The notes beneath the pieces are model-generated. The model worked only from the letters and a program-made list of their open reading frames with translations, was not told the DNA's origin and did not search any database. The translations under genes and the position numbers were made by a program. Shown here piece by piece: positions 9,712-33,022 of a stretch of 36,202 bases of DNA. The DNA lies in assembly GCA_003168265.1 (NCBI GenBank), contig PMSV01000016.1, forward strand, positions 1 to 36,202, read 5' to 3'. How positions within the stretch are numbered: position 1 is the first letter of the stretch; every line of letters starts with the position of its first letter. Source of the stretch: Chitinophagaceae bacterium. Its GTDB lineage: Bacteria; Bacteroidota; Bacteroidia; Chitinophagales; Chitinophagaceae.

Positions 9712-12240
9712 TCAGGCTTCCGACTTTTCAGCTTCTTCCTTTTCCTTCAAAGTGAATTTGATCTTCGAATTTTCCTTGTCCAGGCCGGCTACCAGCACAT
9801 CTCCATTCTTGATATTCATACTCAGGATTTCTTCGGCCAGCGGATCTTCCAGGTATTTCTGTATCGCCCTGTGAAGCGGCCTCGCTCCGAATTGCTGGTC
9901 ATAGCCCTTATCAGCAATGAAATGCTTGGCCTCTTCGGTCAATTCCAGAGTGAATCCCAGCGAGTTTAGCCTTTTCAGGACGCCCTTCATCAATATATCG
10001 ATGATCTGGAAAATATTCTCCTTACTCAATGCATTGAAGATGATCACATCATCAATACGGTTGAGGAATTCCGGGCTGAAAGTGCGCTTTAAAGCTTTTT
10101 CAATGACGGCCTTGTTGTTTTCATCCACATTTTGCGTGCGGGTCGCTGTTGCAAAACCAACCCCGTCACCGAAGTCCTTTAGTTGGCGCGCCCCGATATT
10201 GGAGGTCATGATGATCAGCGTATTCTTAAAGTCGATCTTACGCCCAAGTCCATCCGTCAATTGCCCATCGTCAAGAACCTGCAGTAGAATATTGTAAATA
10301 TCAGGATGCGCTTTTTCGATTTCATCGAGCAGGATGACCGAATAGGGCTTGCGTCTGACTTTCTCGGTCAATTGGCCGCCTTCCTCGTAACCCACATAAC
10401 CCGGAGGAGCGCCGATCAAACGGCTGACTGTAAATTTTTCCATGTATTCGCTCATGTCGATGCGAATCAGGGCATCTTCCGAATCAAACATATACCGGGC
10501 CAGGGAACGCGCCAATTCCGTCTTTCCTACACCTGTGGGGCCCAGGAAAATAAAAGTACCCACCGGTTTCTTTGGGTCTTTAAGGCCCACCCTGTTTCTC
10601 TGTATGGCTTTCACCACTTTTTGTATGGCTTCATCCTGCCCGATCACCATACCCCTCATATCCGTGGCCATATTGCGCAGTTTCTCGCTCTCTGCCTGAA
10701 CCATCCTTTTTACAGGAATCCCCGTCATCATGCTGACTACTTCGGCAATATTTTCCTCATCGATCGGATAGCGCTTGTGTTTGCTTTCTTCTTCCCACTC
10801 GGCCTTTGCCCTCTCCAGTTCCTCCTGAAGCCTCTTTTCGGTATCTCTTAAGGAAGCGGCTTCTTCGAATTTCTGACTCTTAACGACCTTATTTTTCTCG
10901 TTCTTTACGTCTTCAATCTTCTTTTCCAGGTCCACGATATTCTGCGGAACATTGATGTTTTTAAGGTGCACCCTTGCACCCACTTCATCCAAAACGTCAA
11001 TGGCCTTGTCCGGAAGGAGCCTGTCCGTCATATAACGGTCGGAAAGTTTCACACAGGCATCGATAGCTTCGTCCGAATAAATGACATTATGGTAATCCTC
11101 GTATTTGGATTTGATATTATTGAGTATCTGTATGGTCTCATCCACTGTCGGCGGTTCCACGATTACTTTCTGGAAACGGCGATCAAGAGCCCCGTCCTTT
11201 TCAATATACATCCTGTACTCGTCCAGGGTGGATGCGCCAATGCATTGGAGTTCACCTCTTGCCAAAGCAGGTTTGAATATATTGGAAGCGTCCAGGGAAC
11301 CACTCGCTCCTCCTGCACCGACAATCGTATGGATTTCATCGATGAAAAGGATCACATCCCTGTTCTTTTCAAGTTCGTTCATGATAGCCTTCATCCTTTC
11401 TTCGAACTGACCGCGATACTTGGTACCTGCGACCAGGGCGGCCAGATCAAGGGAAATTACCCTTTTATCGAAAAGGACCCGGGAAACCTTTCTTTGTACG
11501 ATTCGCAGGGCCAGTCCTTCAACGATGGCCGTCTTGCCTACTCCAGGCTCTCCTATAAGGATGGGGTTGTTCTTCTTACGTCGGGAAAGTATTTGGGAAA
11601 CCCTCTCGATCTCAATTTCCCTGCCTACGATCGGGTCAAGGGAATTGGTTTCAGCAAGTCTGGTTATATCCCTTCCAAAATTATCAAGTACCGGAGTCTT
11701 GCTCTTGGTATTGCCGGCAGCCTTTGCCTTTTGCTGCGAGAATTTCTTTTCTTCATCGAAATCATCCTCATTTTCATCTGCATAATCACTGCGGATATCG
11801 TTGCTCTTCACAACGCCCAATTCATTTCTGAACAGATCATAATCCACTTCAAACTGGTTGAGGATCTGGGTTGCAACATTTTCCTTGTTTTTCAGAATGG
11901 AAAGCATGAGATGCTCTGTTTCCACAGTGGCGCTTTTGAGTGCCTTTGCCTCCAAAACAGTCACACGGATCACTTTCTCTGCCTGTTTCGTTAAGGGTAG
12001 GCTATTAATGTTTGCAATATTCTTACCGGTTTTGTCCTTAACTGCCAACTCTACTTCTTTACGCAATTCGTACAAGTCAACATTAAAGCTCTTTAAAATA
12101 CGGACCGCTGTATTGTCACCTTCTCTGATCAAGCCAAGCAACAAATGTTCCGTGCCGATAAAATCATTTCCCAGTCTCAAAGCTTCCTCCCTGCTGAACG
12201 ATATGATTTCCTTCACTTGGGCCGAAAAATTATTATCCAT
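9712..12240 (-). CDS. clpC: ATP-dependent Clp protease ATP-binding subunit ClpC
   Basis: Hsp100 unfoldase that feeds substrates to ClpP. The 842-aa protein contains two N-terminal Clp-N repeats (residues about 1-140), AAA domain 1 with Walker A GEPGVGKT (230-237) and Walker [11 protein letters not shown] (297-306), a UVR/coiled middle segment (about 435-480) that distinguishes ClpC from ClpB, and AAA domain 2 with Walker A GPTGVGKT (567-574) and [12 protein letters not shown]. The VGF sequence in the FGDGVGFAT loop is a plausible ClpP-docking tripeptide. It is divergent from the STAS-domain gene and followed by a terminator hairpin. All motifs are intact. Confidence 0.96.
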
Positions 12241-12249
12241 TTTTAGTTA

Positions 12250-12283
12250 ATTGTGCTTTATACAATAATAACGAATATTTTTG
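12250..12283 (+). promoter_or_regulatory. Probable promoter of the STAS-domain gene
   Basis: ATTG at 12250-12253 (-33-like) and TATTTTTG at 12276-12283, an exact TAnnTTTG -7 box, are separated by 22 nt. The start site would fall near 12290, which supports ATG 12334 over a longer in-frame start at 12253. Confidence 0.4.
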
Positions 12284-12333
12284 ATTTCTATTTCTGTCTG
12301 TTTATTAACCATTGTGAATACCAATTGATAAAC

Positions 12334-12705
12334 ATGAGGTTCAAAATTGATACCAGAGAGAAATTCCATGCCATTACCATCCAGGAGCCCGCTCTTGCTG
12401 CTAATATGACAGCCGAATTGAGTAATTACCTTCTAAATAAGCACCAAAATGGCTGTAAAAACGTAGTGCTTAATCTACAAGACATCCAAACCGTTGATAA
12501 CGCTGCTGCCGAATCCCTTGTCAAACTGCAGCAGGAATACTATGAAAAGAATGCTTCATTCGTCATTTGCTGCCTCAACAAGGAAGTTGAGGATTTTCTC
12601 GATAAGGAGGGTTTACTTGAAATGATGAATGTAACAGCTACCGAAACAGAGGCTGGCGATATTGTTCTATTGGAAGAAGTAGAAAGAGAACTCTTAGGAG
12701 ATTAA
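12334..12705 (+). CDS. STAS-domain protein (anti-sigma-factor-antagonist-like)
   Basis: A 123-aa single-domain protein. The alternating pattern KNVVLNLQDIQTVDNAAAESLVKLQQEYYEKNASFVICCLN matches the STAS fold of SpoIIAA-type antagonists and of STAS phospho-sensors. The position usually holding the phosphorylatable Ser (DS-G-x) reads VDNAAAES here, so the phospho-serine is not in its standard place, which suggests a non-canonical or phosphorylation-independent STAS protein. Start at 12334 is chosen because the N-terminus then begins the domain directly and a -7 box lies upstream. It is divergent from clpC and 18 nt before the kinase-like gene, with which it probably forms an operon. Confidence 0.75.
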   Translation: MRFKIDTREKFHAITIQEPALAANMTAELSNYLLNKHQNGCKNVVLNLQDIQTVDNAAAESLVKLQQEYYEKNASFVICCLNKEVEDFLDKEGLLEMMNVTATETEAGDIVLLEEVERELLGD

Positions 12706-12723
12706 GAAGGAATCGAACATTTT

Positions 12724-13614
12724 ATGGCCCGGATTGTTAACTCTCTTAATCCCGATGATTTTTTTTCCCGGCTCTTTGGGTTGACTGCCGGTTCGTTTAA
12801 TTATTCCAGTGTTGGCGGAGGTTCTATCAATTCTTGTTATCGGATCACACTCAATTCAGGCCAGCAGCATTTCTGTAAAATCAATTCGGTTAGACAATTT
12901 CCCCAACTCTTTTTAAAAGAAAAAAATGGCCTGGAAACCCTTTCAAGCGCCAATATAATCAGAACTCCTGCCGTACTCGGTCAGGGTCAATTCGACGATT
13001 CGGACATCCAGTATCTTTTGCTTGAATGGATCGACCAGGGATTGAAATCTGAGACTTTTTGGGGAAATTTTGGGGAACAATTGGCACAAATGCACAATTC
13101 GACCGTTGAATCTCATGGACACATCGAGAAGAATTATATGGGAGCCCTGCCTCAATCCAATCATCAAAAAGCGGATTGGACCTTGTTCTTCATTTCCGAG
13201 CGTCTATGGCCCCAGGTCCGGTTCGGAATGGAAAAAGGCATGCTCGAAGACCGTCATTTAAAGGAGTTTGAAAATCTCTATCCTAAGCTACCTGCCCTGT
13301 TCGGGCAACAGCCACCCTCACTCTTGCATGGGGATCTCTGGAGCGGGAATTTCCTGGCCGATCAAAATGCCCAGCCTGTCCTGATCGACCCAGCAGTATA
13401 TTACGGAAGCCGGCATATGGACCTGGCCATGACCACCCTATTCGGCGGATTCGGCAAGAGATTTTACGCCGCGTACAACTATCATTATCCGATTCCACCT
13501 GATTCCCGGGATATCTGGGCTATCTGTAATCTTTACCCCTTGCTCATCCATTTGAACCTCTTTGGCAAATCCTATTTGCCCCGGATCGAACAAACCATAA
13601 AGGCCTTTCTTTAG
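12724..13614 (+). CDS. Fructosamine kinase family protein
   Basis: Aminoglycoside-phosphotransferase-fold kinase related to fructosamine-3-kinase, which phosphorylates ketosamines on glycated proteins or small molecules and so allows their breakdown. The 296-aa protein shows the nucleotide-binding region near residue 25-60 (GGGSINSCYRI, HFCKIN), the catalytic loop LLHGDLWSGNF around residue 200 (Asp base and Asn metal ligand) and the metal-binding VLIDPAVYYGSRHMDLAM about 20 residues later. WTLFFISERLWPQV is also typical of the family. It follows the STAS gene by 18 nt. Substrate is not determined by sequence. Confidence 0.88.
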   Translation: MARIVNSLNPDDFFSRLFGLTAGSFNYSSVGGGSINSCYRITLNSGQQHFCKINSVRQFPQLFLKEKNGLETLSSANIIRTPAVLGQGQFDDSDIQYLLLEWIDQGLKSETFWGNFGEQLAQMHNSTVESHGHIEKNYMGALPQSNHQKADWTLFFISERLWPQVRFGMEKGMLEDRHLKEFENLYPKLPALFGQQPPSLLHGDLWSGNFLADQNAQPVLIDPAVYYGSRHMDLAMTTLFGGFGKRFYAAYNYHYPIPPDSRDIWAICNLYPLLIHLNLFGKSYLPRIEQTIKAFL

Positions 13615-20726: not shown

Positions 20727-21809
20727 CTAGTCTAAAGTAATTTTTCGAATGCGATTATTACCCGAATCTGCAACGTATAAATTGCCATTAGAATCAATTG
20801 TAACTCCAATGGGGTAATTGAATTCTGCACTTGTGCCTTTGCCATCTATATGTCCCGCAGTACCATTCCCCGCAATTGTACTAACCATTCCACTAGTTGT
20901 AATTTTTCGGATTGCGTTATTTGAATAATCCCCGACATAAATATTACCTTGCGTGTCAACAGCTAACCCTCTAGCATCTCCAAATTCAGCATTTAAAGCG
21001 GTCCCATCAGCAAAACCAGAAATGCCATTACCTGCTACAGTATAAACGTTTCCTGACGTTGTAACTATACGAATTCGATTATTGCCATCATCTGCTACAT
21101 ATAAATTGCCTTGCCCATCAAGTGCTACCCCGGCAATATTATTAAATTCCGCTGTTGATGCAGCACCATCAACGTATCCTGCCGTCCCGTTACCTGCCAA
21201 AACTGTCACAGAACCTGTTGAAGTAACTTTTCGTATGCAATTATTATATTCATCACCAACATATAAATTTCCTTCTCCATCTATAGTAATACCTCTAGGA
21301 TAATTAAACTCTGCATTTGGCCCTATCCCGTTAACTAAACCAGGGATGCCATTACCTGCCAGCGTTGTAACTACATCCATGGAGTTGATCTCACGTATAG
21401 CGCAATTTACCTGATCTGATAAAAAAACATTTAGATTACTATCTACGCATATACCAACATCCGGGGAGTGGAATTCTGCTGCTGCACCTGTTCCATTAAG
21501 ATACCCAGGTTCACCATTTCCTGCAAGTGTAGAAACTACCCCTAGAGTATTAATAAGGCGAACGCAATTATTATTACGATCAGTCACGTAAATATTTCCT
21601 TGTGCATCCAGAACTATCCCTGTAGGTGCATCAAATTCTGCATTTAAGGAATCACCATTTGTAAAACCCGCTGTGCCACTTCCGGCAATCGTTGTTACAT
21701 TGACGTTAGACGAAGTCGTTGGGGGGCCTCCTCCATAACTCTTAGAACATGCCTGCAAAAAGCTAATAAATATTGCGGCTGTAAACAGTACATTGATGAA
21801 CGTTTTCAT
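20727..21809 (-). CDS. NHL-repeat lipoprotein, six-bladed propeller
   Basis: A 360-aa exported lipoprotein (signal peptide then FLQAC, Cys21). It consists almost entirely of six tandem NHL units of about 53 residues, each with the pattern V-x-T-x-AGNG, a glycine-rich turn, AEF, G-ϕ-ϕ-D, GN-ϕ-YV-x-D, NN-x-IRK. Six units match a complete six-bladed beta-propeller. Such proteins bind ligands, or serve as scaffold or lyase-like surface proteins; the substrate cannot be told. ATG 21809 starts the signal peptide directly. It lies just downstream (in its own direction) of the putative tRNA terminator at 21832-21863. The DNA is more AT-rich than the housekeeping region. Confidence 0.87.
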   Translation of the reverse strand: MKTFINVLFTAAIFISFLQACSKSYGGGPPTTSSNVNVTTIAGSGTAGFTNGDSLNAEFDAPTGIVLDAQGNIYVTDRNNNCVRLINTLGVVSTLAGNGEPGYLNGTGAAAEFHSPDVGICVDSNLNVFLSDQVNCAIREINSMDVVTTLAGNGIPGLVNGIGPNAEFNYPRGITIDGEGNLYVGDEYNNCIRKVTSTGSVTVLAGNGTAGYVDGAASTAEFNNIAGVALDGQGNLYVADDGNNRIRIVTTSGNVYTVAGNGISGFADGTALNAEFGDARGLAVDTQGNIYVGDYSNNAIRKITTSGMVSTIAGNGTAGHIDGKGTSAEFNYPIGVTIDSNGNLYVADSGNNRIRKITLD

Positions 21810-21831
21810 AAATATTACTTTTAATGAACTT

Positions 21832-21863
21832 AATAAAACAAAAACCCCTGACAATCAGGGGTT
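21832..21863 (-). terminator. Terminator on minus strand (likely of a lost tRNA gene)
   Basis: A 9-bp stem, AACCCCTGA with TCAGGGGTT and a 3-nt loop, is followed on the minus strand by TTTGTTTT. No protein gene ends here on that strand. The only candidate template is the tRNA 3' remnant 34 nt upstream, consistent with a former tRNA transcription unit. Confidence 0.75.
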
Positions 21864-21896
21864 GTGAAGTAAGCAGGTTTTCTGGAGATGAACTTT

Positions 21897-21910
21897 GCGG
21901 ACCGGACGGG
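21897..21910 (-). other. tRNA 3'-end remnant, putative att site of a genomic island
   Basis: On the minus strand this reads CCCGTCCGGTCCGC. It matches the 3' T-stem strand, acceptor stem and discriminator G of tRNA-Asp-type genes. The normal T-loop sequence is absent just upstream, where the match stops abruptly. A terminator follows downstream. This is the pattern left at the distal end of an element integrated in a tRNA gene; the intact tRNA would lie at the other end of the element, to the right of the window. Assignment to tRNA-Asp rests on the G73-type end and CCCGTCCGG and is tentative. Confidence 0.5.
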
Positions 21911-22069
21911 TCCGATTAACTTTGATACAAAACATTATAATTCAATATCTTACAAAGGTACCTTTTTTACTTACTCACCTATTCGCTCACCTTTTTCAGA
22001 ATTGCAAATCTCTTGTAAAGGTAAGAAAATCAACGTTAAGACTAATCTTTTGCGCCGCTTTTTTAGGAG

Positions 22070-22119
22070 GGACTCGAACCTCGGTCCTATTCTTACGAAA
22101 TGGACTCGAACCGCGGTCC
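22070..22119 (-). repeat. Two tandem tRNA T-arm-like repeats
   Basis: On the minus strand the 18-mers GGACCGCGGTTCGAGTCC (22119-22102) and GGACCGAGGTTCGAGTCC (22087-22070) differ at one base and are 32 nt apart from start to start. Each contains the T-loop core GGTTCGAGTCC, but flanking bases do not close complete 5-bp T stems and no tRNA body lies upstream. They may be decayed tRNA 3' ends, recombinase arm sites or leftovers of earlier integrations. Confidence 0.5.
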
Positions 22120-22226
22120 CATACCGGTAAAAGGAATATAAACTTCGGAGCTGATTATTCTGCCGAATATTGTAAAGTCTCCGGAGGTACATGCCAGGAT
22201 AACCAAGACTAATAACAATAAAAGAT

Positions 22227-22254
22227 ACACGCCGTTCTACGACGTGTTCTTTTT
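22227..22254 (+). terminator. Terminator-like hairpin at island edge
   Basis: ACACG-C-CGT and ACG-A-CGTGT pair around the loop TCT (eight pairs, one internal mismatch), followed by TTCTTTTT on the plus strand. It lies 75 nt before the first island gene and could block read-through from outside, or end a small RNA transcribed from 22,130-22,226. Confidence 0.45.
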
Positions 22255-22329
22255 ATGAACTGAAACTTCTTGAAAATAGGTTATAAGACCCCTTCTTCAA
22301 CCTGAATAATATCCTAAATTCCACAAAAA

Positions 22330-24021
22330 ATGCCCGTTTTTTATTCCGTCAGTCTTGCTTACAATGATATATATGGTGATTATACAACCATAAACCCCAA
22401 AACCCTGATAGACGATATCCCGATGAGAATGTCCCTCGCTCTTGTTTGCCATTACACAGCACAGTTGCATACCGCTGAAACAAAGCCTTTAAAACAACTT
22501 GAAATTATAGATGCCTGGAGCGCAAGATTTCCCCCAGCGATCAAATCCAAAATAAACGCTAAAATAAAAGACTTCACAAATAAAGGGTTTTCCAACTTCA
22601 ATTTTTTTAATAATGTATCAAGCCTCTATTGCATCGAGTTTCTACTGGAAAACAGCAATACCCTTCCACTTTCCTCTGGCTTAACATCTGAGCAAGAAGA
22701 AAACCTTTTCAAATTGTACATCTATTTTTCTGCGAAATGGACGAAAGAGCAAGAAGCTTTTATGAATACACAAAACAATAACGGAATTCCTGTTTTTGAC
22801 TGGACCTTAGCTTTAATGCTACCATTTTCGGAACTAGTTGAATTCAAAGATTTTCGCCTCCAATTTATCAAAGCCATCTACTTCTTTAAATTTTGTAAAA
22901 GCAATACAGAATTTAAAGAATTTCTGGATATCTTTCTTCAAACCTTATCTATTTCAACATGGCAGGAATATCTAATAAATGTTGTCAGCGTGTATGTAGA
23001 AGCATTAGAAACAGAATCAGTAAAGACCATTGTTCAATTTAAGCCCAATGACATGCACATATTTCATGCTCTTGAAAATTTCTTTGTCGAAATTTCAACA
23101 TTTAAGGCCAAACAAGATTTTTTAGAATTACGACAAACACCCTTGTATAAATATTCTGGAAATGAATTTTTAATATTAAACACAAACTTCTTTGTTGATA
23201 AGATCTATCAGGGGATTTTATTCGACTTTGCTTCGGTCCTTATCAAAGCAAAAGCTAAATACAGAGGAAACGTCCTAACAAAACTCACCGAATTTATAGG
23301 AATATTTGGGAATGATTTTGTGGAGCAGAATCTATTTTACAAAATTATGGAATCGACTTTTAAAAGAAAAGGATATCAACATTATAACGGCGATAAACTC
23401 AAAGAAATGTTTGGGGACGGTGCACCGGATTATATTGTCATTGATAAGCACAAGGCATATATATTTGAATTCAAGAATACGCTCTTTAGCGCCAAGGCGA
23501 AGTATTCTTACGATCCCAAGTCGGTAAAAGATGAAATTTATAAAAAATTTGTAGAAAACACCTCTGGTCGACCGAAAGGAGTAACCCAATTGGTCAACTT
23601 TTTTGAAGACGTCACCAAGGATAGATATTTAAGAATTATGAATAGGCAATCCGCCAAATTTACCTTCTACCCAATTATAGTAACCACAGATTTCAGCTTT
23701 AATCTTCCAACAATTAATAAAGTTCTAACCGATGAGTTTGCTGCCCAGATTCATGCCGCCAAAATCACTGACATTCTCGAAATCATGACGCTAACATTAA
23801 TTGATGTTGATTTACTAATTAAATTTCAAGATTTATTTAAAACAATGCGATTAACACTCCACAGAGAATTGAACGAATTTCAAAAATACCTGCAGAAAGG
23901 GACCAATTCAATCGACCGAGCATTGTCCTTTCACCGTTACCTCCATGACAAAACTGCCAAAATGAAATACTCCACGCCGCAAATATTTTTTACAGAAATA
24001 GCTCCGCTATTGCAATCATAA
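22330..24021 (+). CDS. PD-(D/E)XK nuclease-like protein of unknown family
   Basis: A 563-aa soluble protein. Residues about 1-320 are helical and unrecognised. Residues about 325-500 resemble a PD-(D/E)XK nuclease core: a helix with Glu332 (GNDFVEQNLFYKIMESTF), then GAPDYIV with Asp367, and IFEFKNT with Glu380 and Lys382, giving the order E...D...ExK. These catalytic positions are intact. The C-terminus is helical. It is the first gene of a plus-strand operon, 7 nt before the Ntn-hydrolase-like gene, which suggests translational coupling. Function is unknown; a nuclease effector in an anti-phage module is the leading idea, based on fold and setting in a nuclease-rich island. Base composition is clearly more AT-rich than the left part of the window. 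Confidence 0.7.
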   Translation: MPVFYSVSLAYNDIYGDYTTINPKTLIDDIPMRMSLALVCHYTAQLHTAETKPLKQLEIIDAWSARFPPAIKSKINAKIKDFTNKGFSNFNFFNNVSSLYCIEFLLENSNTLPLSSGLTSEQEENLFKLYIYFSAKWTKEQEAFMNTQNNNGIPVFDWTLALMLPFSELVEFKDFRLQFIKAIYFFKFCKSNTEFKEFLDIFLQTLSISTWQEYLINVVSVYVEALETESVKTIVQFKPNDMHIFHALENFFVEISTFKAKQDFLELRQTPLYKYSGNEFLILNTNFFVDKIYQGILFDFASVLIKAKAKYRGNVLTKLTEFIGIFGNDFVEQNLFYKIMESTFKRKGYQHYNGDKLKEMFGDGAPDYIVIDKHKAYIFEFKNTLFSAKAKYSYDPKSVKDEIYKKFVENTSGRPKGVTQLVNFFEDVTKDRYLRIMNRQSAKFTFYPIIVTTDFSFNLPTINKVLTDEFAAQIHAAKITDILEIMTLTLIDVDLLIKFQDLFKTMRLTLHRELNEFQKYLQKGTNSIDRALSFHRYLHDKTAKMKYSTPQIFFTEIAPLLQS

Positions 24022-24028
24022 ATAAAGT

Positions 24029-25231
24029 ATGACATTAATCGCTTCGACGCTGAATTTTAAAAAGCCATTCCTAATGAGCGACCTTGTATGGTCTTCCTCA
24101 AAAATTGACGGGGCCATTATTATGCCAACGAATAGCTTTGATCTCCGCCCTCACCTTTCTGTTGAACAAGAAGAAAAACCCGTCCGCCTTTACCAAAAAA
24201 TGTACTGTATCAAAGAAAAAACCTGCATTGTCTTTGCCGGCTTTAGTGATGAAATAAAAGTGTTCTTAACGGTAATCAAACACATTTTCCGGAACCACGA
24301 TGCAATTTCCATGGACGAAATGCACGAATTTCTGAATGGTTATAACCTGCAAACCAAGTTTCTAGATTCAGCCTTCTTTATTATGAACGTTGAGAATTTG
24401 CCGCAAGGCTCGATCAATGTTGGCCAGTTCAATTGTCCGAGCAAAACCAATGTCGTGGATCTCACTGAGTTTATTGTATCTGAAGAGGATTGGAACGAGA
24501 TGTATCATCCAATTTTTGATAAAGTTTCAGCTTGCGGAAGTGGTGCCAAAGGATATTTGAACATTGTCAATCAAGAAGCCATTTTTTACTCAAAATTCGA
24601 GGATGGGGATTTCATGAAAGCCGTACAAACTAATGCAACGCTTATAGCCAAGATATTAGCATTGGAAAGAGTGTCCCTTTACACCTTAAAGAATAATTGG
24701 GGTGGAGGCTTTGAGACCGCCTATTTCAACGGAATGAAATTTGAGAAAATTGCGAACATAGCATACATTATCTGTCACAACCAATTTGACAGTTTAGGAG
24801 ACATTGGATTGCCGCTTTCCATATTGGTCATGTACTATAAGTACATGAATGACATTCTATATATCATCACGGTAGAGATACATAAATACGAAACTCATGA
24901 AACGGATTGTCATATTATCTACATTGCGTATAGTGGCAACTACCGAACGGCAATTTTCGAGATAGAGGGTTTGGATGTGGACAATATTGAGCAATACGAC
25001 CTACCTTCAGATTGTTCGTTTTCAACTGATAAAATCGCAATAGGCTACTCCATAGTTACTAAGGCAAACACGATCTTCAATCCTGCTCTCTTTAATTTTG
25101 GGCCTGAAATCGAAGTTCATTTTCAGCAAGGCAGTAGTATCGAGCTTAAAATTGATAAGAAAATAGAATCGGACATACGGGAGATGTCCAGAGAAAAGTA
25201 TCCGGCGTTAGACGGATCCATTATTTATTAA
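24029..25231 (+). CDS. Possible Ntn-hydrolase (proteasome/HslV-like) fold protein
   Basis: A 400-aa protein with no family I can name. Its N-terminal 180 residues follow the plan of HslV/proteasome-beta proteins: MTLIAST puts Thr2 at the N-terminus after Met removal, LMSDL supplies an Asp at about 18, KMYCI a Lys at about 57, then IVFAGFSDEIKVFLTVI resembles the strand-and-helix containing the conserved AGF, and ACGSGAKGYLNIV near 168-180 resembles the conserved GSG segment. The C-terminal half (about 200-400) is different and predicted beta-rich. If right, it is a threonine protease or amidase paired with a nuclease. The fold call is by eye and moderate. It is 7 nt from the upstream gene and 45 nt before the next. 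Confidence 0.55.
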   Translation: MTLIASTLNFKKPFLMSDLVWSSSKIDGAIIMPTNSFDLRPHLSVEQEEKPVRLYQKMYCIKEKTCIVFAGFSDEIKVFLTVIKHIFRNHDAISMDEMHEFLNGYNLQTKFLDSAFFIMNVENLPQGSINVGQFNCPSKTNVVDLTEFIVSEEDWNEMYHPIFDKVSACGSGAKGYLNIVNQEAIFYSKFEDGDFMKAVQTNATLIAKILALERVSLYTLKNNWGGGFETAYFNGMKFEKIANIAYIICHNQFDSLGDIGLPLSILVMYYKYMNDILYIITVEIHKYETHETDCHIIYIAYSGNYRTAIFEIEGLDVDNIEQYDLPSDCSFSTDKIAIGYSIVTKANTIFNPALFNFGPEIEVHFQQGSSIELKIDKKIESDIREMSREKYPALDGSIIY

Positions 25232-25276
25232 CCTATTCAATACCGGCAGGCACACAAATTAACAAAGATCTAATCC

Positions 25277-25768
25277 ATGCAACATGACTCCCGACAAGAC
25301 CCAAAAGGAGAGATCAATTTCGCAAGGGAAAATGTTGCCTTATTTCTGCCCGCACTCATTTACTTCACCGATCATCCCGATTTCCCCTGGAAAAGGATCA
25401 ACAAACTTTTTAGTGCGAAAATCCAAGAGCGGAAGGCAAAAGCGAACGGCGAAACAATCACTATTGAAGCGAGTGTGTTTGATATAATTATTGCAGCTAA
25501 AACCGGAAACAATACGGCAAAAGGCCTTCTACTATTTCTGAATCGTCTCATTCACGACCTATCTAGAATCCTATCCATCGGTGAACGACAAATGGTCTTT
25601 ACCAATATCAAGAGTATGCTTATGACGTTAGATTGGCGGTTTTACAATTTCGTGGGGGAAATAGGTATCCTGAAAAACATCCTATCAACAAACAAATATC
25701 GCCTTTTACACATAGAAGAATCATTACCTAATAATAGAACGATTGACTTTACTATTCAAGAACTTTAA
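25277..25768 (+). CDS. Hypothetical protein; N-terminal part of an apparently split gene
   Basis: A 163-codon reading frame ending at TAA 25766-25768. The N-terminal 120 residues are helical (LFLPALIYFTDH, RINKLFSAKIQ, LLLFLNRLIHDL). The end, with Glu128 in GEIGILKN and Asp157 in RTIDFTI, looks like the first half of a PD-(D/E)XK-like core. The same frame continues after TAA without frameshift into TLVEVVNIHVD and the 105-codon frame starting at GTG 25808, and the codons between look coding. I infer that one gene of about 281 codons has been broken by a nonsense change (for example CAA to TAA). It lies 45 nt after the Ntn-like gene in the same direction. Confidence 0.6.
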   Translation: MQHDSRQDPKGEINFARENVALFLPALIYFTDHPDFPWKRINKLFSAKIQERKAKANGETITIEASVFDIIIAAKTGNNTAKGLLLFLNRLIHDLSRILSIGERQMVFTNIKSMLMTLDWRFYNFVGEIGILKNILSTNKYRLLHIEESLPNNRTIDFTIQEL

Positions 25769-25807
25769 TCATCACACATAACGCTTGTCGAAGTCGTCAA
25801 CATCCAT

Positions 25808-26125
25808 GTGGACAGCGACAAGATAGACGCCAATCCAGAAGCTATCAAAAAATTCCTAACTGACCGTTTAACCGACAAAATTTTGGATAAACAAAAAAAA
25901 CTTGCGTCACCAATTGAATTTACTCTAGTCCCGGTTATATGGGGAGGAAAGGAAGACCTTAAAGTATATGGTGAATATTTCCAGGAGCATCAACTCGATT
26001 TAAAAAACGTTCACGAGCCTTTTGGATGGCTCCAGTTTTCAGATGGTAAAGATTATTATGCCCATCGCTTTTCTAGGCTGAAAAACCTCTTTAACGATTT
26101 TGATCCAGTTACAAAAGGTGAATAA
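25808..26125 (+). CDS. Hypothetical protein; C-terminal part of the split gene
   Basis: A 105-codon frame from GTG 25808 in the same frame as the upstream 163-codon ORF, from which it is separated by TAA and 13 sense codons. Those 13 codons (SSHITLVEVVNIHV type) contain no normal start codon yet read as a beta strand that would carry the E-x-x of a nuclease-like core; the usual lysine is Val, so activity is doubtful even if read through. The rest holds FTLVPVIWGGKEDLKVYGEY and FGWLQFSDGKDYYAHRFSRL, not recognised. Initiation at GTG without a ribosome site is weakly supported, so this is best regarded as the 3' piece of a pseudogene. Confidence 0.45.
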   Translation: MDSDKIDANPEAIKKFLTDRLTDKILDKQKKLASPIEFTLVPVIWGGKEDLKVYGEYFQEHQLDLKNVHEPFGWLQFSDGKDYYAHRFSRLKNLFNDFDPVTKGE

Positions 26126-26133
26126 GGGCATAG

Positions 26134-26568
26134 GTGGTAGACATAGATAATGTGCTAGTTGATTTTGTAACGGGTATTAAAAAAACAGCTAAGCAAGACC
26201 TATAGTTTTATGAGGGCAGATTAGATGAGGTGCCGCATATTTTTTCAAGAATGGTGCCAGTTAAAGATGCCGTTGATCCTTATAAATTATTGACTGAATA
26301 TTTTGACTTCTATATCCTTTCGATTACACCTTGGAATAATCATACTGCCTGGGTCGGTAAATTGAATTGGGTAAAAAAATATTTGGGCGAACATGCTTAT
26401 AAACGGTTGATACTTTCCCATCATAAGAATCTCAACGGCAGAGATTTTTTAGTAGACAACCGAACAAAAAATAGTGCTGATCGATTTAATGGAGAACTTA
26501 TTCTTTTTGGTAGTAACACTTTTCCTGATTTGAATACTGTTACAAGGTATCTACTGACAAAGGTTTAA
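26134..26568 (+). pseudogene. 5'(3')-deoxyribonucleotidase (NT5C type) with in-frame TAG
   Basis: HAD-family nucleotidase removing phosphate from (deoxy)pyrimidine monophosphates. The frame from GTG 26134 gives VDIDNVLVDFVTGIKK, containing the DxD nucleophile motif, then a TAG at 26203-26205, then FYEGRLDEVPHIFSRMVP continuing in the same frame to AYKRLILSHHKNLNGRDFLVDNRTKNSADRF and the end at 26568. The downstream part keeps SITPWNNHTAW and the Lys and Asp motifs. One stop in an otherwise intact frame and loss of the usual first residues point to a recent pseudogene. A 112-codon frame from GTG 26230 could still be translated but would lack the nucleophile. Confidence 0.82.
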
Positions 26569-26599
26569 AGTTTTTGTCTGGATAGAGAATAAAGTGTAT

Positions 26600-27484
26600 C
26601 TAATTTGGCGGACTATTGAAGCCATCGATAATTCCAGTTAAACGTCTCTGTATATTCCAAGTGGCACAGTTTAGTACGCCTCCAAGTTTAGCCAGTTCCT
26701 GGCAGTCGATATCTATCAATTCCCGATTCGGAAACGCACTTCTCAAAGCTATTTCGGCGATTTGATCGCCGAGCTGAGCATAAACAGGGTAAATGATATA
26801 ATTCCCCACTTCCAGAAAGTTAATATAGCATCCCGTGGCGTCGTTTGAATCATTATTTTGCCAGGATGTATAAGGCAAATCAATAATCCGGAGACCAGCA
26901 TTCATGAGACTACATCGTAAAGCATAGCCAAATTCCAAGTATACCTTGTTTTTAGGATACCGGTTAACCAAAACTGTATTTTCATTCACAAAGCGAACCA
27001 TACCGTCAGCATGTCCGACCAAATCCCTGGGCTCGTGGGGTATGACAATTACCTGTTTTACCCTAAGCTGGTTCTTAATTTCAACAATCAAATTGCGTTC
27101 AGGGAAATCAGGGTTTTCCTTAAATACCTTGGAGGTAATGATCACCTTGGTCTTTGATTTTACTATGTTGCCGCCATCCAAAACAATACCTACTCTATTA
27201 GGTAAGATTCCCAATGTTTTTAACAGCACTTCAGGATCAGATTTTGTATTTTGATATTTCTTAATCTTCAAGTAGTCTGGGTCGTACTTGTATTGTACAA
27301 AAAAGTGATTGGTTACCTGAATCGGCATAAAATCTCTTACCCACAGATCTTTTGTCCCACTCAGGATTTCATATTTAATCCTGAATTTATCAAATCTCTG
27401 GATCAACTGATCATAGAACTCAGGACATTTCATTTCCAGAAGATCGGACAGGTAAACAATATTAGATTCCTGATCGCAAATCAT
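26600..27484 (-). CDS. Agmatine/peptidylarginine deiminase family protein
   Basis: Guanidine-group modifying enzyme fold (Porphyromonas-type PAD, agmatine deiminase) that hydrolyses a guanidinium to a ureido group. The 294-aa protein retains the expected active-site set: Trp48-Val-Arg-Asp51 (WVRDF), Asp103 in LDGGN, His158 and Asp160 in GHADGMVRF, and the nucleophile Cys273 in GGVLNCATW. It lacks a signal peptide, so it is cytoplasmic. I start at ATG 27484, which overlaps the HNH gene stop as ATGA; the in-frame ATG at 27505 is less likely. The substrate could be agmatine, but its length and coupling to a nuclease differ from ordinary metabolic agmatine deiminases (about 340-370 aa). Confidence 0.85.
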   Translation of the reverse strand: MICDQESNIVYLSDLLEMKCPEFYDQLIQRFDKFRIKYEILSGTKDLWVRDFMPIQVTNHFFVQYKYDPDYLKIKKYQNTKSDPEVLLKTLGILPNRVGIVLDGGNIVKSKTKVIITSKVFKENPDFPERNLIVEIKNQLRVKQVIVIPHEPRDLVGHADGMVRFVNENTVLVNRYPKNKVYLEFGYALRCSLMNAGLRIIDLPYTSWQNNDSNDATGCYINFLEVGNYIIYPVYAQLGDQIAEIALRSAFPNRELIDIDCQELAKLGGVLNCATWNIQRRLTGIIDGFNSPPN

Positions 27485-31013: not shown

Positions 31014-32087
31014 ATGGAAATAACGGACTTAAAAATGAATGAATCAGTGCTGTTTTCAGAATTCAGTACCTATGTGGATCCCATACGGTTATATTTTGCA
31101 TATTTCAAGAAAATACCTTCTGTAAAGACCATAGATGGAATCGATTCAATTCGGTTTAAAAAATGGATAAATAGTGAACGGACTGAAAAAATTGTTGATA
31201 AAAATTCAAAGCAACTGTATAAAAGAAAGTTGAGGAAGTGGCAGGATTCGGAAGGTTATTTTTTGCTGGATAATAACGTGCTCATATACTTTGAAATAGG
31301 CAAAGTGAGTGTTTTGTATGAATATGACCAGGAATTACTGGCTCTTGAATATATGCGTCAGATTGGCCGGTCTCGCGCCTCAGAAGGAAAAGGTCAGGAA
31401 ATCTCTTTGGTAGTAGATGGTCAAAACGGAATTGATACCAATAGTCTGAAGATAAAAAAACCAAAACTGGATCTGGCAATTCATTATAATGATGACCTGC
31501 TCTCTTTTCACGATAAAATAGTTTCATCATTGAAGACTAAGAATAAAAGTGGGCTGTACTTACTTTACGGAATTCCTGGTACTGGCAAGTCAACGTACAT
31601 TCGGTATTTAGTTTGTTCCACGAAAAAGAAGGTGATCTTTATGCCGCCCGGACTTGCTGGTCACCTGGATTCAACCCAAATCGCTAAGATGCTATTGGAA
31701 AATGAAAATGCCATTTTCGTTATTGAAGATGCTGAGGAATTGATCAACTCCCGGGATTTGGGGAAAAACTCTGCGATGTCGATGCTGCTTAACTTAACCG
31801 ACGGCCTCCTAGGAGACGCGCTTGGTATTCAGATTATAATAACATTCAACACCAATCCGGCTAACCTGGACAAGGCACTTATGCGTAAAGGAAGGCTGAT
31901 CGCATTATATGAATTCAAGCCTTTGTCCGTCTCCAAAGCTAGATTACTATTGAACAAAACGGGTGCTTGTGATTACACCGTAATTGAGCCTATGACGCTT
32001 GCTGATCTTTTCCATGTGAGAGGGAGAGATTATCAATTTAAAAATAATATCCGGAATCCGATTGGTTTTTTGGTCGGTGCTGTTTGA
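31014..32087 (+). CDS. BCS1-like AAA family ATPase
   Basis: A 357-aa soluble ATPase. Residues about 1-150 are unrecognised. The AAA core starts near 175: Walker A GIPGTGKST (186-194), Walker B AIFVIEDAEEL (233-243), sensor 1 IIITFNTN (274-281) and the RKGR arginine-finger region (291-294). The closest domain type is the BCS1-like AAA, but no transmembrane segment is visible. It is the first gene of a plus-strand group with a WYL regulator 29 nt downstream and a Cys-rich protein after it. A role in defence or in stress-controlled remodelling is plausible; the substrate is unknown. A second ATG (codon 8) could also be the start. Confidence 0.82.
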   Translation: MEITDLKMNESVLFSEFSTYVDPIRLYFAYFKKIPSVKTIDGIDSIRFKKWINSERTEKIVDKNSKQLYKRKLRKWQDSEGYFLLDNNVLIYFEIGKVSVLYEYDQELLALEYMRQIGRSRASEGKGQEISLVVDGQNGIDTNSLKIKKPKLDLAIHYNDDLLSFHDKIVSSLKTKNKSGLYLLYGIPGTGKSTYIRYLVCSTKKKVIFMPPGLAGHLDSTQIAKMLLENENAIFVIEDAEELINSRDLGKNSAMSMLLNLTDGLLGDALGIQIIITFNTNPANLDKALMRKGRLIALYEFKPLSVSKARLLLNKTGACDYTVIEPMTLADLFHVRGRDYQFKNNIRNPIGFLVGAV

Positions 32088-32116
32088 TTTGTTTAATGAT
32101 TATAAAAAGTAGATAA

Positions 32117-33022
32117 ATGCCCAAAGAGACTTTTATTGCCCGATTTTCCCTGATCATAAAGCGATTGGAAAAAGGTCCTGCTACCTACGAGCAAATTGCA
32201 AAATATCTGGAAGATGAGTCAGCTATTCAGGACAGGGACTTTATCATTTCCAGGCGGACTCTTCAAAGGGATATCAGGGATATTTATTCACAGCTCAACA
32301 TTGAAATTTCCAACGAGAAGAGGGGAGATAAAAGGTACTTTATTAAAACCCAGCCTGAGACTCAGGAACACAGTCAGCGCTTGCTGGAGTCCTACCAGAT
32401 TGTCAATGCCATTCATGCAGCCCATGACTTTTCAGAATATGTCTTTTTAGAAACCAGAAAACCCAAGGGCCTAGAACATTTTTACGGCCTGTTATATTCT
32501 ATTCGTAATAAAAGAGTCTTACATTTTACATATTTCAAATACCCAGACGAAGACTTTACTAACAGAATCGTACACCCTTTGGGCCTCAAAGAATCACAAG
32601 GCCGCTGGTACCTGATTGGTATAGATGCGAAAGATAAAAAGTTAAAAACATTTGGCCTTGACAGGATGAAAGACATCGATATCAGTAAATCGAAGTTCCG
32701 CGAGTCCTATGACTACAATTTGAATGCATTATTTAGTCATTCATTTGGCATCATCAATACCGGGAAGGAAAAACTTCAAACTCTACTTTTGAAATTTTCA
32801 TATAATCAGGCGCAGTATATTAAAACCTATCCGCTACACGCATCCCAAAAGGTGATTGAAGAAAATAGAAATGGGCTACTCATAGAGATAGTCGTGTTTA
32901 TTACCTACGATTTAATAAAAGAGCTCATTTCTTTTGGTGAAGACCTAGTTGTTATGAATCCCCTTAAACTGCGCGGCGAAATAAAAAAGACATTGACGAA
33001 TACCTTAAAACTTTACAAATAG
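32117..33022 (+). CDS. WYL-domain transcriptional regulator
   Basis: A 301-aa regulator. The N-terminal winged-helix (residues about 1-60) contains YEQIAKYLEDE and SRRTLQRDIRDIYSQL. The WYL domain follows with YGLLYSIRNKRVLHFTY, HPLGLKESQGRWYLIGID and KTFGLDRM; a C-terminal WCX-like extension covers the last 80 residues. WYL proteins bind nucleic-acid or nucleotide ligands and commonly control phage-defence genes. Here it sits between an AAA ATPase and a Cys4 protein, so it probably regulates this operon, perhaps through the inverted repeats at 30,860-30,980. Confidence 0.9.
   Translation: MPKETFIARFSLIIKRLEKGPATYEQIAKYLEDESAIQDRDFIISRRTLQRDIRDIYSQLNIEISNEKRGDKRYFIKTQPETQEHSQRLLESYQIVNAIHAAHDFSEYVFLETRKPKGLEHFYGLLYSIRNKRVLHFTYFKYPDEDFTNRIVHPLGLKESQGRWYLIGIDAKDKKLKTFGLDRMKDIDISKSKFRESYDYNLNALFSHSFGIINTGKEKLQTLLLKFSYNQAQYIKTYPLHASQKVIEENRNGLLIEIVVFITYDLIKELISFGEDLVVMNPLKLRGEIKKTLTNTLKLYK

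Follow-up and report, generated by a model that had tools for sequence, protein, structure and literature searches.

The locus

The window, that is, the whole stretch of DNA analysed here, comprises 36,202 nt (positions 1 to 36,202 of contig PMSV01000016.1) from a Chitinophagaceae bacterium (GenBank assembly GCA_003168265.1), whose genome measures 4.30 Mb in 24 contigs. Its + strand holds a trio of genes: one for a 563-residue protein of the PD-(D/E)XK nuclease type (22330-24021), one for a 400-residue proteasome-like protein of the N-terminal nucleophile (Ntn) class with a putative N-terminal threonine (24029-25231), and a third gene broken by an in-frame stop codon (25277-26125). The open reading frames (ORFs), their coordinates and the gaps of 7 nt between the nuclease and Ntn genes (24022-24028) and 45 nt between the Ntn and third genes (25232-25276) agree with a first-pass annotation of this DNA, in which the trio had been proposed as a new coupled system. 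A terminator-like site was looked for between the nuclease and Ntn genes and none was found; one is located on the + strand at 25200-25217, close to the 3' end of the Ntn gene. This work centres on the 400-residue protein, relatives of which were found in or right behind several unrelated DNA-cutting or DNA-sensing defence operons.

The 400-residue protein: residues, spacing and profile comparisons

The protein begins with MTLIAST and carries T2, D18, K57, A70-G71-F72 and the segment GSGAKG (residues 170-175), all read in the first-pass annotation as marks of a proteasome- or HslV-type threonine hydrolase. A protein search returned 24 rows, of which 23 are relatives and one is the entry of the window itself (P0001); in the alignment of these 24 sequences (A1), every row that extends to T2 and D18 retains them. 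In a wider set of 38 sequences, window included, with Cyanobacteria, Alpha- and Gammaproteobacteria among them and one row that starts later, T2, D18 and K57 were each found in 37 of 37 sequences, so that the conservation of Thr2 and D18 in homologues, on which the earlier proposal depended, is now documented. In the same set G71 and G172 are present in 38/38 and G170 in 37/38, and residue 171 is serine in 22/38 and threonine in 10/38. In all 37 sequences reaching that position the presumed threonine nucleophile stands directly after the initiator methionine. Identity to the window protein is just 18-30% for the relatives at loci L005, L007, L008, L030 and L031.

The spacing follows the same pattern. 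The catalytic residues of the proteasome are numbered Thr1, Asp17, Lys33 and the oxyanion Gly47 in the available portion of PMC8665760, and the distances T2-D18 (16 residues) and K57-G71 (14 residues) equal those of Thr1-Asp17 and Lys33-Gly47. The distance between D18 and K57 is about 23 residues longer than the corresponding one of the proteasome, in the window and in most aligned relatives; the additional stretch is shorter in P0015 and absent in L055 (Candidatus Tenderia plasmid), where Lys is found at 33 and Gly at 47, counting the start codon as 1. The proteasome GSG occupies residues 128-130 and is followed by Asp166/Ser169; no invariant Asp right before WGGGFE was found in the Ntn alignment.

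Searches with hidden Markov models (HMMs) and against structure-derived sequences gave weak matches. The Pfam Proteasome model matches 5 of the 24 A1 members (best E 0.0064), which makes it the Pfam family with the most members, and 3 of the 19 A6 members, one exactly at the curated cut-off; the relative at L031 reached 22.4 bits, equal to the cut-off of 22.4, and 23.6 bits in the genome search. One lone member matched Pfam Peptidase_C14 (E 0.034). The archaeal proteasome model of NCBIfam, arc_protsome_B, matched 6/24 A1 members weakly (best 0.0034), and no HslV model was among the NCBIfam matches of A1. By searching the PDB with the A6 profile, 93 matches were obtained, the best 60 of which all have E >= 0.12, and the top ten rows are proteasome subunits plus one HslV (E 0.12-0.15). 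With L031, six of seven weak rows were proteasome subunits (best of those E 0.39) and the top row was an antibody (E 0.29); the searches with profile A1 and with L055 gave no match. Profile-profile proof of kinship with HslV or Anbu was rejected, as the scores were weak and the HslV-Anbu positive control failed with thin profiles. The residues and their spacing are what mainly identify the 400-residue protein as a member of the Ntn class, which on these grounds we regard as very likely, and the proteasome/HslV-type identity proposed earlier is supported by them at the level of sequence.

Distribution and genomic contexts of the Ntn family

The family is rare. Relatives were found in 2 of 298 genomes of the order by the A1 search and, by the A4 search, in 1/395 genomes of the phylum (the window's own) and 5/394 of the family; in the genera of G168, G684 and G682 the counts were 4/79, 2/61 and 1/55 (the seed itself), respectively. 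These counts include the seed genomes, and the larger searches scored just a few first-look candidates per genome. Neither plasmids nor 50,697 phage records contained a match of the window protein, and viral contigs yielded no confirmed relative. The L008 and L005 proteins gave none in plasmids, L007 gave two plasmid matches, and L054 found in plasmids only itself and one of the two matches of L007, and in phages none. Spread by phages or plasmids was rejected, given that the phage, plasmid and viral-contig searches were nearly empty.

Besides the window, 15 Ntn loci were considered, corresponding to 13 independent sites once L066 was merged with L065 and L102 with L008; the fragment L006 (residues 1-70) was excluded. 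At 4 of the 13 sites the Ntn gene lies inside or right behind a defence operon, as recognized by a strong PADLOC match of the same-strand upstream gene. In Pedobacter (L005) it stands 126 bp behind LmuA-LmuB of a Lamassu system, and at L031 it is placed 248 bp behind GajA-GajB of a Gabija system, with no terminator-like site between in either case. A PD-Lambda-5_A-like gene precedes it in Mesorhizobium amorphae (L008, gap of 24 bp) and in another genome of the same genus (L102, gap of 18 bp). On the Oscillatoria plasmid pOSC7112.01 (L054) it is embedded in a type I restriction-modification (RM) operon, in the order methylase, second methylase part, specificity subunit, Ntn and HsdR, separated by 1 bp from the preceding hsdS and sharing 20 bp with hsdR.

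Two of these contexts showed further features. The Mesorhizobium loci present a reciprocal decay (L008 8658-9976 versus L102 7119-8161): at L008 a whole Ntn gene follows a split upstream gene, and at L102 the upstream gene is whole and the Ntn gene frameshifted. Directly upstream of the type I RM operon of L054 (669-3292), the annotation of the record names Multiubiquitin, E2-like, ThiF and DUF6527 genes.

The remaining sites are more varied. At L003, a 444-residue protein encoded 21 bp upstream of the Ntn gene is PD-(D/E)XK-like by eye; it matched nothing in PADLOC and, in Pfam, only DUF6540 insignificantly. The PADLOC SoFic model is matched (E 1.3e-20) by a convergent gene at the same locus (11196-13130), which follows the Ntn relative at a distance of 13 bp. 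At L067 a TmtA-like gene begins 1.1 kb downstream of the Ntn gene. The upstream genes of L007, L055, L065/L066 (L065 standing for L066) and L083 were without a PADLOC match, as was the downstream gene of L004. For the neighbours at L002 and L030 and the gene preceding the Ntn gene at L004, the listed translations alone were the basis of the assessment.

Recurrence of the three-gene set

The first-pass annotation had envisaged the trio as a recurrent unit, and this part of the proposal was not supported in the loci tested. No relative of the nuclease or of the third gene was adjacent to the Ntn gene in eight full Ntn loci (L002-L005, L007, L008, L030 and L031), no Ntn relative was near the nuclease in 16 nuclease loci or near the third gene in 7 third-gene loci, and L083 searched with the nuclease profile gave none. 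Of the later Ntn loci (L054, L055, L065-L067, L083 and L102), the nuclease-profile search thus covered L083 only, and the third-gene-profile search covered just the eight loci named first. Among 394 genomes of the family, 5 have the Ntn gene and 9 the third gene, both occurring together only in the window's genome. The two Ntn-bearing genomes of the order (the window's and G168) both also hold a nuclease relative, in G168 on another contig. A probable exception is given by P0002 (Ntn) and P0145 (third gene), each 84% identical to its window counterpart and each reported on a contig of 5,075 bp, the source being the same; from the equal contig size and the common source, the two genes have probably been kept together there. 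A recurrent nuclease-Ntn system, with or without the third gene, was rejected, the pairing not being found in the loci tested. Of the new coupled system proposed earlier, the Ntn-type and PD-(D/E)XK-type identities are supported by their residues and the recurrent gene pairing is not supported. Four similar neighbour genes, conjugation-like by eye, were seen both beside an Ntn relative (L003 13314-17924) and beside a nuclease relative (L038 155-4922).

The nuclease-like protein, the third gene and the island

The 563-residue protein was aligned with 30 relatives picked among 120 rows listed of 125 found, and all 31 sequences have E332, D367, E380 and K382 without exception, which bears out the nuclease order (E, D, E-x-K) pointed out in the first-pass annotation. 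Every HMM cut-off was missed by the window protein, with Pfam PDDEXK_9 at E 0.062 and 13.7 bits against a cut-off of 25.5, and no PDB chain was matched by the family profile. The assignment as a PD-(D/E)XK-type protein is supported by the invariant residues. Of the 298 genomes of the order, 16 carry a member of the family, counting that of the window. As for the third gene, no confirmed relative of the nuclease was found in viral contigs.

The third gene consists of two pieces on the + strand in one frame, at 25277-25768 (163 residues) and 25808-26125 (105 residues), parted by a TAA at 25766-25768. Since the frame stays open from there to 26122, a single TAA inside the window's copy was reported by the genome profile search, and nine stop-free relatives of 253-312 residues exist (P0145-P0151, P0153 and P0154), the gene is taken as nonsense-interrupted in this assembly, in line with the split gene noted before. 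It was found in 9/394 genomes of the family, window's own included, and one of the other eight copies also has an internal stop. The relative P0146 matched nothing in Pfam or PADLOC, P0148 showed a weak AbiEi match (E 0.0047), and the family profile had no match in the PDB. By the PADLOC 2.0 component HMMs, no family was assigned to either piece of the window's third gene or to the window's Ntn protein. In L097 (6816-8546) the third-gene relative lies within a 576-residue ORF, possibly a fusion.

The trio stands at the left edge of a region of low guanine-cytosine (GC) content. The GC fraction of 2-kb windows lies between 0.42 and 0.50 in the first 20 kb, takes the value 0.40 at 20-22 kb, and stays at 0.33-0.40 from about 21 kb onwards as far as the window reaches. 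The drop at about 20-21 kb adjoins two GGACTCGAACC repeats, at 22070 and 22102, which form a tandem pair of 21-nt repeats (22070-22122) that we take to resemble tRNA 3' ends; no RNA was called by ARAGORN on the whole window or by Rfam on 21000-27000. The repeats and the GC drop likely mark an integration edge, as the island edge of the first-pass annotation had suggested.

Beyond the trio, a 112-residue ORF (26230-26568) matches positions 60-154 of 180 of the 5' nucleotidase NT5C profile (E 9.7e-9) and is a likely remnant, because the start of the profile is missing from the match. On the - strand, more defence-like or island genes follow between 26600 and 30746, encoding a PAD_porph deiminase, an HNH protein with weak PtuB likeness, a protein weakly like Mrr_cat (below cut-off) and a DUF2779 protein with a Cas4-like match. 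An AAA ATPase and then a WYL-domain protein are encoded at 31014-33022.

Proposed role and alternative explanations

The reading that we favour, and to which we give about an even chance, is that DNA-cutting defence has recruited a proteasome-like hydrolase whose gene is an accessory to it, probably with a controlling function. The 400-residue protein would be a proteasome-like N-terminal threonine hydrolase without a propeptide, in which Met removal exposes Thr2, and it would be active in this form because Met removal before Thr is ordinary. Its gene would be a free-standing accessory, repeatedly placed in or right behind DNA-cutting or DNA-sensing defence operons and, in the window, probably co-transcribed with the PD-(D/E)XK nuclease in the low-GC island. 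The product most likely acts on its partner system through protein cleavage. The partners have DNA cutting or sensing in common, not sequence, and since a protein-acting accessory suits several DNA-cutting systems, the protein would most simply control the nuclease complex. Proteolytic control, by switching the nuclease off or by clearing stalled complexes as ClpXP does with HsdR, seems preferable to a killer effector. The protein may instead degrade phage proteins, process or ligate specific targets, or activate its partner by cleavage. In a broader form, which we put forward more tentatively, at least four unrelated DNA-immune systems (type I RM, Gabija, Lamassu and PD-Lambda-5_A-like) and at least one PD-(D/E)XK nuclease may each have recruited the family independently, as a plug-in protease controlling or executing immunity.

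Several observations weigh against the recruitment of a proteasome-like hydrolase by defence. Searched by itself against Pfam, the window protein does not match Proteasome; the unrelated DUF2002 model outnumbers the archaeal proteasome model among A1 members (7/24, best 0.0065); and the weak PDB rows below the proteasome ones, among the best 60 of 93 obtained with A6, are mostly caspase-3 chains. The kinship with HslV by profile-profile comparison is weak: A6 against five HslV gave E 0.0026 and a probability of 11.6%, the best of all pairs including HslV-Anbu, and A4 against HslV gave E 0.052. In hmmsearch with small HslV/Anbu profiles, the Ntn proteins scored at most 1.5 bits versus 6.1 for the best shuffled sequence. 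By the PADLOC 2.0 component HMMs, no family was assigned to the window nuclease. Finally, at 7 of the 13 sites no defence gene was seen directly beside the Ntn gene, and the context sample is small.

The separate occurrence of the nuclease, Ntn and third-gene families in other genomes, their meeting only in the window's genome among those of the family, the broken state of the third gene and the seven sites without a visible defence neighbour would also be expected if the trio were island cargo, that is, three unrelated, separately mobile genes that met in a defence island, the Ntn protein having another function and its neighbours reflecting island clustering. We hold this account to be possible but doubtful. 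The operon-tight positions in unrelated systems speak against it, with a spacing of 1 bp and an overlap of 20 bp in type I RM and 18-24 bp in two genomes of one genus, and so does a control made with the genes that lie upstream on the same strand, at most 300 bp away, from relatives of the nuclease and third genes. Of the control neighbours, 0/10 scanned (11 eligible) were strong in PADLOC, with one marginal (E 5e-4), and a strong match was found for the upstream neighbours of the Ntn genes in 5/10 scanned (11 eligible); the upstream genes of L066 and L096 were left unscanned, and L066 is counted as a non-hit in 5/11. The one-sided Fisher test gave 0.033 for independent sites (4/9 vs 0/10) and 0.023 for all loci (5/11 vs 0/10), with a 300-bp limit chosen post hoc when the gaps were already known, and with the Ntn and control families occurring in partly different genomes; the counts are small, and the post hoc limit belongs with the points against the favoured reading.

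Two further explanations keep the enzyme and change its task. A connectase-like peptide ligase or processing enzyme, highly specific and modifying one partner protein rather than degrading it, would fit the approximately 23 additional residues between the D17 and K33 equivalents, a region of S3/S4 insertions according to the available portion of PMC8665760, the match of the site being putative; we consider it improbable. That the protein is a counter-defence factor carried by a phage or element and degrading immune proteins of the host appears very improbable. The L083 copy is surrounded by phage-like recombination genes, with an integrase-like gene nearby (by eye), and phage-borne families, PPH and AAH, are described in the available part of PMC8665760; against this, the 50,697 phage records held no match of the window protein, viral contigs held no confirmed relative, and four sites are inside or behind host defence operons.

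Comparison with known systems

The T1/D17/K33/G47 pattern is common to the proteasome-like family and to the window protein. HslV has the same order of N-terminal Thr, D, K, AG and GSG, but comprises 176 residues versus about 400 in the window protein, with its insertion and C-terminal extension. Anbu is a bacterial proteasome homologue with Thr right after Met, as in the window protein, and was represented here by two proteins that we take to be Anbu by length and start; no significant profile similarity to the window's Ntn family was found. For the partner, the E-D-ExK invariant in 31 aligned sequences is that of the PD-(D/E)XK superfamily, yet no Pfam match above cut-off, PADLOC match or PDB match was obtained.

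Among the published subfamilies, PMI-6 (representative WP_103790100.1) shares with the window's Ntn family the additional D17-K33 residues, the presence in Bacteroidetes and Proteobacteria and the lack of a propeptide, as far as the available text of PMC8665760 describes it. The same text places S3/S4 insertions in connectase, PMI-5 and PMI-6, and the window's 23 additional residues fall in that region by sequence position, with a putative strand match. The window's family is perhaps the PMI-6 subfamily. Fuchs, Alva and Lupas described 22 new subfamilies of proteasome homologues, for which the available portion of the survey gives no genomic context or co-occurrence suggesting a specific function (Fuchs, Alva, Lupas, 2021; PMC8665760). 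In contrast to PMI-6 and the other published subfamilies, so reported, defence operons recur around the family studied here.

In the literature searched, most subscription journals and preprints being outside the search, gabija, lamassu and proteasome were found together in no paper. A search on proteasome-like proteins, Ntn hydrolases and anti-phage defence returned nothing but the 2021 survey of the family and one paper on the 20S proteasome, and in wider searches, the survey aside, no title on a proteasome-like defence protein was among the matches listed. PD-lambda-5 is described in PMC9519451, and the word proteasome is absent from its main text.

The nearest functional parallel would be the control of type I restriction by ClpXP, an ATP-dependent house-keeping protease. 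ClpXP acts on HsdR in restriction alleviation, according to the available portions of PMC4231737 and PMC11109961, so that proteolysis restrains a defence nuclease, as is proposed here for the Ntn protein. The difference is that the Ntn protein is operon-encoded and proteasome-like, and its contexts hint that protein cutting may serve bacterial immunity as an accessory. If true, the recurrent place in DNA-defence operons would give this family of proteasome homologues a testable role, and would link proteasome-type hydrolases to bacterial immunity, with bearing on how restriction and nuclease defences are restrained.

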